This document shows positions 19,273-44,296 of a stretch of 64,000 nt of DNA, one piece after another (the stretch's first letter is position 1; every line of letters begins with the position of its first letter). Below the pieces are notes generated by a model that saw only the letters and a program-made list of their open reading frames with translations, had not been told where the DNA came from and made no database searches. Both the position numbers and the translations under genes were made by a program. Where the stretch lies: contig NC_015172.1 of the NCBI RefSeq assembly GCF_000190635.1, positions 1,860,001 to 1,924,000 of the forward strand, given 5' to 3'. This DNA is from Syntrophobotulus glycolicus DSM 8271. GTDB lineage: Bacteria > Bacillota > Desulfitobacteriia > Desulfitobacteriales > Syntrophobotulaceae.

Positions 19273-19812
19273 TTAACTTTCTTCTGCTTCCCTTTTACTT
19301 TTGATAAAATCCACCAAAACAGGATCTTCTTCTTCTCCGATATTATTGATCAAATTTGTCAGACCAGGTAAGACCGTTTGCTCTTCGGAGGGGGCGGGTG
19401 TCTCTGCTGTCTCTACAAGCTCAAAACTTATCTGAGTTGCGGGTTTTTCGGAATACAAATCGTTAAGATTAAAATCCTCCAGATTAAAGCTGTTAAACTG
19501 CGGTATCGTACTGCCTGTTACCTGATTGCTGATTTCACTGTCCAAAATCTCAGTTTCCTGAATCAAGCTCTTTGGAATTCCCGCCTGGTCCTGACTGGCG
19601 GCCACCTCTTTTAATACACCGGCGTCCTGGGGAACTCCGGTTTCTTTCCTGATTTGCGGGATGAAAGCATTATTATTTTTAAGCAGGGTACTTCTGAGGG
19701 CATTTTTGACAGAGGCATTCCTTTCTTCGGGAGAGACCTGGCTGAGTACCCGCCAAAGATCAAAATCTTCATTTTCTGAGATATAAATGATTAATAAACC
19801 TGATGTTTTCAT
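19273..19812 (-). CDS. Unknown protein downstream of actin-like gene (possible ParR-like adaptor)
   Basis: 179 residues with no family I can name. Residues 1-45 read like a short beta strand (LLIIYIS) followed by two helices (FDLWRVLSQVSPEERNASV and KNALRSTLL), the layout of a ribbon-helix-helix DNA-binding domain. The rest is low in hydrophobic content and rich in E, Q, S, P and N, so probably disordered, with a charged C-terminal end (DFIKSKREAEES). It starts 2 bases after the stop of the ParM-like gene without its own SD, so translation is likely coupled. In plasmid parMRC loci the gene in this position encodes ParR, which binds the centromere and caps ParM through its C-terminus. The match is by architecture only. 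Confidence 0.5.
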   Translation of the reverse strand: MKTSGLLIIYISENEDFDLWRVLSQVSPEERNASVKNALRSTLLKNNNAFIPQIRKETGVPQDAGVLKEVAASQDQAGIPKSLIQETEILDSEISNQVTGSTIPQFNSFNLEDFNLNDLYSEKPATQISFELVETAETPAPSEEQTVLPGLTNLINNIGEEEDPVLVDFIKSKREAEES

Positions 19813-19814
19813 GT

Positions 19815-20921
19815 TTAATCAACATTTACTTTTCTGGTTAAATTATGAACAAGATTAGCGGCCATAATCCGAAACCCTGTGGCATTGCCGAATTGAGGGT
19901 CGTCAATTAAGACCTTGTTTTCAAGATTCAAATATTCAAAGACCATTTCCCCCACTTTGCCCGCTACAAGCACAGTGTGAATCCGGCCGGCCATTGGCTT
20001 GAGTGTTTTCATCACTTCACGGGAAATATCCGCTGCCAGTTGGGATAACATTTTTTTCATGACGGGATTTAGATCAATGGCCCCGTTATTCCATGGATAT
20101 AGGCCTTTATTGACACGAAAAACCTTATCCAGTTCTTTGTCGTCAGTTTCAATTGGATTGGTATGATCATTCGTCATTTCCTTGAGCTTTTCCGCCACTC
20201 CGGCATAGGCCCATTGCAAGCCCTTTTCAATACTGAAGGAATTTGGGGGATCAAGCATGATTCCGTCATAGAAGGTTGCAATATCCGTAGTTCTGAATCC
20301 GGGATCAATGACCACAACGTAGCCGCCCAACAGCTTTGGATTGATGGGCTGGGCTTTTTCCGTAATGGTTTCTTTTATGTAGACGCCATAACTCTGCGGC
20401 AAAACTCTTGATCTCAGTATATTCATACTTCTGGTTTGACCCTTAAACGGTCCGGAAAGAAAGGTAACCGAGAAAGAACCTTTCAGTTCCGCCTCGTACT
20501 TATCCTTTAACGGTGCGTAAAATTTGACCGGTACCCCTGTTCCCAAATAAATGTTGGTCTTCGGATAAGGCTGGGCCAAAGCTAAGGCAACAATTAAAAG
20601 GGCCATGGCTTCTTCATCAGTTGATTTATCTTCATCCCAACAATAGTGGGCTTCTTTCGGATTCAGGCTTTCAGCCAGGCTGCCCATAAAATAATGTCTT
20701 TCCACTCCGGATGAATTATTGCGAACAATAACATCAAGAGAGGAAACCTGCTTTTCAATCTCTGTCCCTTTATCCGGTTCAGTTTTTCCCAAGGTAGAGA
20801 AAATCCTCTCGCTGCCATTGCAGATCACAGCCGGAAATAGAATCTTCGTGTCACCGATATCAAGCTTTATCGCTCCGAATCCTGGATCAGCTCCAGCAAC
20901 CAGAATATCATTTTCAAACAC
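19815..20921 (-). CDS. Actin-like ATPase of the ParM/StbA type
   Basis: 368 residues with the actin-fold ATPase motifs: phosphate-1 VAGADPGFGAIKL (near residue 9), phosphate-2 VVIDPGFRTTDIATF (about 200) and the adenosine motif VLVAGKVGE (about 320). It is closer to plasmid-type ParM/Alp proteins than to MreB or FtsA: it has no membrane helix and the interior blocks GTGVPVKFY and GLQWAYAGVAEKLKE are ParM-like. These proteins polymerise with ATP to push DNA apart. An ATG at 20984 has no SD, whereas the GTG at 20921 follows a perfect AAGGAGG 7 bases away, and this start is used. No plasmid replication gene or iteron array accompanies it. Confidence 0.82.
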   Translation of the reverse strand: MFENDILVAGADPGFGAIKLDIGDTKILFPAVICNGSERIFSTLGKTEPDKGTEIEKQVSSLDVIVRNNSSGVERHYFMGSLAESLNPKEAHYCWDEDKSTDEEAMALLIVALALAQPYPKTNIYLGTGVPVKFYAPLKDKYEAELKGSFSVTFLSGPFKGQTRSMNILRSRVLPQSYGVYIKETITEKAQPINPKLLGGYVVVIDPGFRTTDIATFYDGIMLDPPNSFSIEKGLQWAYAGVAEKLKEMTNDHTNPIETDDKELDKVFRVNKGLYPWNNGAIDLNPVMKKMLSQLAADISREVMKTLKPMAGRIHTVLVAGKVGEMVFEYLNLENKVLIDDPQFGNATGFRIMAANLVHNLTRKVNVD

Positions 20922-21155
20922 TATCTTTCCTCCTTGTTCAACAAAGATCACTTTCTTATTTGAGAATCTAGCTATTTTACTCATTGTATACTATTATTTG
21001 ACTCTTGGGAAGATTTTTAACCTGAGTCCTCTCTGTGTTTGTCTTCTCCTGATAGGGATTTGTTTAATGACCTCAATCTTTATCCTTGAGTGAAGAATAT
21101 TCCTGCTTTTGAAGGAAAAAATAATATATGGTTTTGAGGAAAGGAGTAACAAAAT

Positions 21156-21833
21156 ATGATTATTGCCACGATTCGAACCATTATTCTCTATTTGGTTATC
21201 GTCATCATTATTCGGATAATGGGCAAAAAACAAATCGGACAGCTTCAACCATTTGAATTGGTAATTATTCTGATGATTTCAGAGCTGGCGGCTATTCCCA
21301 GTCAAAACATTGGGATCCCCTTGAGCGCTGGGCTGCTTCCTGTGATTGTTCTTCTGCTGCTGGGCATGACTTTTTCCTACATTACTTTGAAAAGCGAAAA
21401 AGCCAGGGCCTTGATCTGCGGTACTCCTACCATATTAATCGAAAAAGGAAAAATTATTGAAAAGGAGCTTGTCGACCTCAAATATAATCTCAGCGATCTT
21501 CTTGAACAATTGCGAGTGAATAACATTCCGAATATTGCTGATGTTGAATATGCTATTTTGGAAACAAACGGCCAGTTAAGTGTGATTCCCAAAACCGATA
21601 AACGCCCTTTGACTCCTGCGGATATGAACATACATCCTGCCTATGAAGGGCTTCCCTCTATCCTGATTATGGATGGGATTGTCCAAAAAAGGAACCTGGA
21701 AAGATCAAACGCCAATCTTACCTGGCTAAAAAATGAATTAAACAAAGCAAATCTTAAGGTCAATGATGTTCTGATTGCCAGTCTGGACAACCAAAATCAT
21801 CTTTATTTCCAAGCAAAAAAATCCAACAGTTGA
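21156..21833 (+). CDS. DUF421 (YetF-family) membrane protein
   Basis: 225 residues: three N-terminal helices (IIATIRTIILYLVIVIII, FELVIILMISELAAIP, LPVIVLLLLGMTFSYI) and a cytosolic YetF-type domain with YNLSDLLEQLR and ADVEYAILETNGQLSV. The family is common in spore formers; some members affect spore germination, but the biochemical role is unknown. It overlaps the longer possible frame of the next gene and has an AAGGAG SD. The pair with a DUF4363 protein is a recurring arrangement. Confidence 0.85.
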   Translation: MIIATIRTIILYLVIVIIIRIMGKKQIGQLQPFELVIILMISELAAIPSQNIGIPLSAGLLPVIVLLLLGMTFSYITLKSEKARALICGTPTILIEKGKIIEKELVDLKYNLSDLLEQLRVNNIPNIADVEYAILETNGQLSVIPKTDKRPLTPADMNIHPAYEGLPSILIMDGIVQKRNLERSNANLTWLKNELNKANLKVNDVLIASLDNQNHLYFQAKKSNS

Positions 21834-43483: not shown

Positions 43484-44296
43484 TTAGACCTTTTCTGCAA
43501 TCCTTAGTTTATCTGCCACCATGGCGATAAATTCGGAATTCGTTGGTTTACCCCTGTCTAGATTAATGGTATAACCAAAAAATTTATTCATGAACTCAAT
43601 ATTCCCTCGATCCCAAGCCAGTTCAATGGCATGCCGTATCGCTCTTTCCACTCTGCTTGGAGTCGTATTGTATTTTCCGGCAATCATCGGGTATAATTCC
43701 TTAGTGACGGCACCAAGAAGGGCAACTTCCTTAATCACCGCTACAATGGAATCCCTTAAATATTGGTAACCTTTGACATGGGCCGGGACACCCATTTGTT
43801 GAATCATTTTCGTCACTTCAACATCAATATTAACGGCCTTCAGCGGAGTTTGCAAACTTGAATCCGAAGAAAAAACGCTTCTGGTCATTGCAGGAATCGG
43901 AGAAGAGAGCGGTACTGTATCATAATAACCAACCAGTTGTCTTATTCTTTTCCCTAAAGTGTCAATATCGAAGGGTTTCAAAATATAATAATCGGCTCCC
44001 AGTTGAACTGCGCGATGGGTCATGTTTTCCTGACCAAAAGATGTAAGAATAATTACTCGGGGACGTTTGGGAACAAGATCAAATTTTTCCATGACGCCAA
44101 GTCCGTCCAAATGAGGCATAATAATATCTAAAACGACAACATCAGGCTCTTCCGTTCTGATCATTTCCAAAGCATCATTACCGTTATATGCCACACCGGA
44201 AAGAATCATATCTTCCTGATTATTTACGTACTCTCTAAGAATTTCAATAAAGTCCCTGTTATCATCAGCCAGTAATACTCGAATAGGTTGCTGCAT
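43484..44296 (-). CDS. spo0A: Sporulation master regulator Spo0A
   Basis: A 270-residue response regulator. The receiver has acidic residues Asp11-Asp12, the phosphorylated Asp57 in [10 protein letters not shown], Thr/Ser in ILTSFG and Lys in LKPF. A variable linker leads to the Spo0A DNA-binding domain, with recognition helix region [22 protein letters not shown]. Spo0A-P turns on sporulation genes at 0A boxes. The ATG at 44296 follows a GGGAGG; a TTG one codon earlier is also possible. A sigmaH promoter and a perfect 0A box lie upstream. Confidence 0.97.

Follow-up and report, generated by a model that had tools for sequence, protein, structure and literature searches.

A chromosomal ParM-type actin and its putative ParR-like adaptor in Syntrophobotulus glycolicus, probably a domesticated segregation module

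The window analyzed here is a stretch of 64,000 nucleotides from the chromosome of Syntrophobotulus glycolicus DSM 8271, in which a ParM-type actin gene and a partner gene together occupy positions 19273-20921 on the minus strand (Table 1). A first-pass annotation of the window had proposed a gene pair with a 2-base gap in a non-mobile chromosomal setting. The exact coordinates bear out the gap, the partner ATG at 19812 beginning 2 bp past the actin stop at 19815. The cassette is flanked by genes for altronate dehydratase, asparagine synthase, YetF (DUF421), DUF4363, YihY/BrkB, a LysA-type decarboxylase, ScpB and ScpA, with no replication or mobile genes among these neighbors. The genome is a single 3.4-Mb contig bearing dnaA with one such actin copy, the locus being chromosomal and lacking the plasmid carriage that characterizes plasmid ParMRC. 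The flanking genes and their conserved synteny likewise agree with the proposed setting, as does the absence of direct repeats upstream. The divergent yetF-like gene (window 21156-21833) has its intergenic region in common with the actin promoter, a layout that most same-family loci retain and that may reflect co-regulation of the two. A spo0A-like gene lies at window 43487-44287 on the same strand, about 23 kb from the cassette, with the corresponding distance being 26-48 kb in several same-family genomes.

Table 1. Features of the actin-partner cassette and its upstream region, with positions in the window.
Feature	Position	Strand	Basis
ParM-type actin, 368 aa, GTG start, Dh-cParM1 ortholog	19815..20921	-	phmmer, Pfam, single copy
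AGGAGG ribosome-binding site of the actin gene, 7 bases before GTG 20921	20929..20934	-	read from sequence
Sigma-A-like promoter, TTCCCA-17-TACAAT	20983..21011	-	-10 region conserved in related loci
Inverted repeat TCTTCCCAAGA over the -35 box, possible autoregulatory operator	21003..21013	-	sequence conservation
Partner, putative cParR adaptor, 179 aa	19273..19812	-	after actin in 63/63 loci; purifying selection
Partner N-domain, residues 1-49, ribbon-helix-helix-like	19666..19812	-	AlphaFold2 and PDB match
Partner linker, about residues 50-145, predicted disordered	19378..19665	-	low AlphaFold2 confidence, identity 0.20
Motif FNLNDLY, residues 114-120	19453..19473	-	F-S-L-E-x-L-F counterpart in most Desulfosporosinus partners
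C-terminal tail, residues 148-174, LPGLTNLINNIGEEEDPVLVDFIKSKR, putative actin-binding peptide	19291..19371	-	49/49 partners

The actin exceeds the Pfam cut-offs for ALP_N (PF17989, E 2.5e-18) and MreB-like_C (PF21522, E 3.7e-9) with the nucleotide-binding motifs around ADPGFG and PGFRTTD conserved, and its top PDB match by phmmer is the ParM structure 8x1i (E 2.2e-199 over residues 1-367), in keeping with the plasmid-type actin that had been claimed. The closest solved ParM after 8x1i is that of pCBH (6izr, 6ixw; phmmer E 3.6e-14). Similarity to FcmB and CorM is weak, the actin scoring 33.3 bits with the FcmB model NF052678 against a curated cut-off of 300. Structure 8X1I is Dh-cParM1, a chromosomal actin of Desulfitobacterium hafniense that forms nucleotide-dependent single and double filaments and is conserved in five of six Desulfitobacterium species (PMC12270681, J Biol Chem 2025). 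The gene downstream was named cParR1, with the yield of its product being too low for purification; AlphaFold3 ribbon-helix-helix predictions are mentioned for cParRs, and neither a parC nor a function is given for cParR1 (PMC12270681). By sequence comparison the window actin is about 80% identical to Dh-cParM1 and is the ortholog of a described system, such that the actin half is not new, and nucleotide-dependent filament formation would be expected of it from this identity. The earlier reading of an unknown or new system is thus superseded, the orthologous pair Dh-cParM1/cParR1 having been published in 2025; what is new here is the anatomy of the adaptor and the evolution of the pair.

The partner has no match in Pfam or NCBIfam, as the first reading had suspected in assigning it to no family. 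AlphaFold2 with 36 orthologs predicted helices at residues 17-24 and 28-49, low confidence from about 50 to 148 and further helices at 149-156 and 164-178, and so agrees with the long disordered tail that had been described, resolving it into a disordered linker plus C-terminal helices. When modeled alone (residues 1-52) the N-domain had a mean pLDDT of 84 with an extended segment (1-16) followed by two helices. The strand is unassigned in this monomer model, as would be expected of a ribbon that forms only in the dimer. In Foldseek the N-domain model ranked ParR of pB171 first (2jd3; TM 0.66, rmsd 1.9, probability 0.60, E 0.99) and VIA-align gave 2jd3 a modest Z of 4.8 vs 2.7 for the next chain, such that structure prediction favors the beta-helix-helix start that had been proposed. 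The full-length partner had no useful match in Foldseek because of its disorder. That the small protein might have some other fold and be unrelated to ParR is very unlikely: the missing family matches would allow it, as would the sequence-profile search against the PDB, in which matches were at E 0.2 or worse (the first, the small protein 2k1o at E 0.2, being non-significant by itself), but the strand-helix-helix model with ParR pB171 as its top match and the column-by-column alignment of the N-domain with the partners of other ParMs argue against it. At the level of the predicted monomer, the N-domain is ribbon-helix-helix-like. A PHROG sigma-factor match of the partner (E 0.0019, residues 42-122) covers mostly the disordered linker and was taken as chance.

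Linker length varies from 58 to 304 aa across orthologs. The tail follows the consensus G-L-x-x-L-L-x-x-V-I-G-E-E-D-D-E-x-V-[IL] in all 49 distinct full-length partners. It is duplicated in six of the 49 (L123, L124, L019, L015, L138, and L024; Desulfitobacterium and others), a duplication that apparently arose more than once. A tail profile run against six whole genomes recovered the partners at E 1e-5 to 1e-15, with the best match beyond them (E 0.065) lying in the partner of the second ParM (L042) of the D. hafniense-like genome G003 and no further site in the six genomes better than E 0.3. Since plasmid ParR touches ParM via its C-terminal tail (PMC5016525), the conserved tail is likely to be the actin-binding peptide.

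An ortholog of the actin was found in 53 of the 74 genomes of the order at 75-93% identity, comprising 24/25 in the window's family and 29/46 in a second family, whereas the order's third family and the other sampled family of the class yielded none. Match E-values in a phylum-wide search fell from about 1e-190 within the clade to about 1e-70 outside the order, the sole intermediate being the second copy in G003 (1e-158), a copy that the profile itself includes. Among 72,556 plasmid and 50,697 phage records there was no relative above 30% identity, the best plasmid relative being about 25% identical, and viral contigs scanned with the actin alignment gave no match. The chromosomal clade comes out in the tree as a single, fully supported branch (100/100) whose stem is long (0.93) and whose crown is shallow; its sisters are the same-order paralogs L042 and L043, with the exact sister order less certain as the outgroups include long branches. 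Second ALP_N actins of 296 aa in some genomes look to be of a different, integrative-element type and served as comparators only.

Upstream, scpA-scpB-lysA-yihY-DUF4363-yetF keep their order and spacing in the majority of loci from the window's family; downstream of the cassette, asnB is present in both families. Within a close group the actin is more conserved (85-93%) than ScpA (55-63%), ScpB (63-72%), LysA (61-73%), AsnB (57-67%), or YetF (50-69%). Over 10 pairs dN/dS ranged from 0.011 to 0.051 in the actin and from 0.089 to 0.332 in the partner, whose orthologs share only about 20-42% identity. Mean pairwise identity was 0.80 in the actin; within the partner it was 0.40 in the N-domain, 0.46 in the tail, and 0.20 in the linker. 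Taken together, the single branch, the synteny and the low dN/dS indicate a single capture, after which the pair was inherited vertically and strongly constrained, and the fully supported branch strengthens the domestication that had been raised as a possibility. That the pair is a plasmid or prophage partition cassette, either recent or in partial decay, with no role in the cell is extremely unlikely; although the actin resembles phage and plasmid ParM (PHROG 691 partition protein) and related copies occur in mobile settings, L043 adjoining a phage-type DnaD-like replication protein, such a cassette would fit neither the vertical inheritance and conserved synteny, nor the strong purifying selection across the order, nor the absence of mobile genes nearby.

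The partner comes after the actin in 63/63 ortholog loci (some from genomes fetched twice), with 61 of these within 42 bp and 48 having a 4-bp overlap, such that the pairing is not due to chance; likewise, a partner match was present in all 53 genomes with an ortholog actin. The two genes have also been lost together. In two second-family genomes of high completeness without an intact actin (G016 and G024; L151 and L152) remnants persist at the expected site, actin residues 1-69 being fused in G016 to the partner from residue 14, as a single deletion would give, and G024 retaining no more than stretches of the actin C-terminus and of the partner tail. Partner fragments alone were found in G044 and G069, whose assemblies are incomplete, and both genes are absent from the nearly complete G010 and G030. 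The jointly decayed remnants in G016 and G024 argue that the module is dispensable, and on their account the 'indispensable' role that has been suggested for Desulfitobacterium lacks support for the order as a whole.

In plasmids, parC is made up of direct repeats lying close to the operon (PMC9426499, PMC5016525). No such direct repeats were found upstream of the actin (window 20900-21250) and the upstream regions of orthologs gave only stray two-copy matches with no parC-like repeats, such that the tandem parC repeats of plasmid ParMRC are missing from this locus; downstream, the gap between the partner and asnB is just 67 bp. The promoter belongs to a class, sigma-A-like, whose matches were no rarer than chance in the scan, and the inverted repeat over its -35 box, conserved in most inspected same-family loci, would possibly fit autoregulation. 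The sequence AATCTTCCCAAGA is present exactly once in the genome and the search with the promoter motif returned 117 sites at <=2 mismatches vs 56 in the reversed control. As a centromere the motif is unconvincing, with one exact site and no cluster among the listed sites, and the repeated genome-wide binding site for which the first-pass annotation had suggested searching did not emerge from it.

In ribbon-helix-helix proteins the bases are read by outward-facing residues of the strand. Base reading by such residues has been described for the omega protein (PMC5016525). Using an alignment-free rule to define the outward triad, K, R, or Q was present in 17 of 22 ParR-like partners of other ParMs, plasmid ones included, compared with 0/50 distinct N-domains of the clade, counts that are non-independent in that the sequences are related. 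The triad is L-I-Y in the window, H/Y-V/I/L-Y in its close relatives and F-P-Y in most Desulfosporosinus, with Y-T-T and V-A-Y also occurring in the clade, T-T-N in one of the nearest relatives and S-T-N in Desulfitobacterium; strands such as FIPLYF, HLLLYI, and LLIIYI are hydrophobic on both faces. The partners are acidic (mean full-length pI about 4.4). Net charge was discarded as an indicator of DNA binding, given that the surroundings of the strand are acidic even in a paralog whose triad is R-N-H, and only the outward triad was kept. Given this relatedness, and given that an S-T-N triad would permit DNA contact, the loss of base reading is put forward as a hypothesis for particular lineages only.

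All 46 good genomes have ParB, those lacking the module included, and replacement of ParABS by the module was therefore rejected. In ten single-contig genomes the cassette lies 0.17-0.47 of the genome from dnaA and is adjacent to it in none. These observations bear on whether the module might work as a chromosomal ParMRC, with the partner acting on a dispersed or degenerate parC and the filaments separating sister regions to supplement ParABS. The position of the locus and the ubiquity of ParB weigh against such a role, as do the missing repeats upstream, the short interval to asnB and the triad counts, but the ParR-like fold of the N-domain, the S-T-N and T-T-N strands and the precedent of Cb-cParMR, a separate chromosomal system in which binding of parC by ParR was demonstrated (PMC12270681), keep it quite possible, if short of probable. 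The segregation cassette that had been proposed on the chromosome thus stands as regards its domestication, with direct segregation of DNA being doubtful given the lack of parC-like repeats, the atypical strand and the presence of ParB. A Spo0A-family match was found in 74/74 genomes (73 over the cut-off) with or without the module and is non-discriminating, such that a sporulation link was set aside; action on the spore, also suggested earlier, gains no specific support from this or from the sigma-A-like promoter.

The best explanation, and a probable one, is a domesticated ParMR module captured once and inherited vertically, in which the adaptor couples the filament to a cargo and plasmid partition has been given up. 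A plasmid- or phage-type ParM-ParR pair would have entered the chromosome of the ancestor of two families, one comprising Desulfitobacterium, Desulfosporosinus, and their kin and the other being the window's own. The actin would polymerize with nucleotide as shown for Dh-cParM1, the partner would dimerize through its ribbon-helix-helix N-domain and extend through the disordered linker, and its C-terminal motif would dock on the actin filament, tying filament growth to cargo. The high conservation of the actin alone gives no indication of that cargo. As the DNA-reading strand has turned hydrophobic in the lineage, a classical parC is no more likely than a cargo other than DNA or some unusual contact with DNA.

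A cytoskeleton repurposed to act on something other than DNA, be it the membrane, the wall machinery, or some other protein, would be a case of convergence with FcmBC/CorMR of filamentous cyanobacteria. This reading shares the module with the domestication favored here, as does a chromosomal ParMRC, and differs in the cargo. It too is a reasonable possibility without being the expected outcome. The doubly hydrophobic strand in an acidic adaptor and the lack of a parC at the locus would suit it, as would the actin's weak resemblance to FcmB and CorM and the precedent of FcmBC in Nostoc, a pair of plasmid-partition origin that is chromosomal, controls rod shape and includes a membrane-localized partner (PMC12645912). 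Against this, neither a membrane anchor nor a known cargo domain turned up in the cassette, the strand chemistry is a correlation among related sequences and the acidity, being shared around the strand of the R-N-H paralog, is undiscriminating. With the window actin far under the FcmB cut-off any shift to a non-DNA role would be independent of FcmBC. An independent conversion in this order, in which the adaptor kept the dimer fold and the tail, lost base reading and came to bind membrane or protein through the strand, is offered more tentatively.

The question of whether ParM-type actins can work for the chromosome or the cell instead of for plasmids was raised in 2025, and the module offers a tractable case with one domestication, an order-wide family, natural loss strains and a short peptide predicted to bind actin. 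Should the adaptor prove to have lost DNA reading, the module would add another independent example, beside the cyanobacterial one, of a segregation machine turned cytoskeleton.

Elsewhere in the phylum, ParM-like actins at L104, L108, L110, L111, L113, L115, L116, and L118 form one clade (100/100), each followed by a gene with bactofilin-like sequence. N-terminal pieces of three of these genes gave Pfam Bactofilin matches, two over the cut-off, and the loci possibly encode an actin-bactofilin pair.

Among known systems, Dh-cParMR-1 shares with the window an orthologous actin, a partner directly downstream and a chromosomal location, but belongs to the other family and has a strongly diverged partner sequence. 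In the D. hafniense-like G003 the partner has two tail motifs vs one in the window and the triad S-T-N vs L-I-Y, with the genes overlapping by 4 bp rather than being separated by 2 bp. Plasmid ParMRC systems (R1/pB171, pSK41) likewise consist of an actin followed by a ParR-like adaptor with a ribbon-helix-helix N-domain, and their C-terminal actin-contacting tail has a putative counterpart in the window partner. The window system differs from them in having no parC-like repeats, no plasmid and order-wide vertical inheritance, together with a conserved actin, a fast-evolving adaptor and a strand without basic or Gln residues. The pCBH ParM of Clostridium botulinum is plasmid-borne and only distantly similar to the window actin. 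FcmB/FcmC and the related cyanobacterial system CorM (PDB 9RMI; preprint cited in PMC12752495) resemble the window in pairing a chromosomal ParM-derived actin with a ParR-derived partner within one clade and away from plasmids, but the window actin is only distantly similar to either and far under the FcmB threshold, which points to a separate capture.
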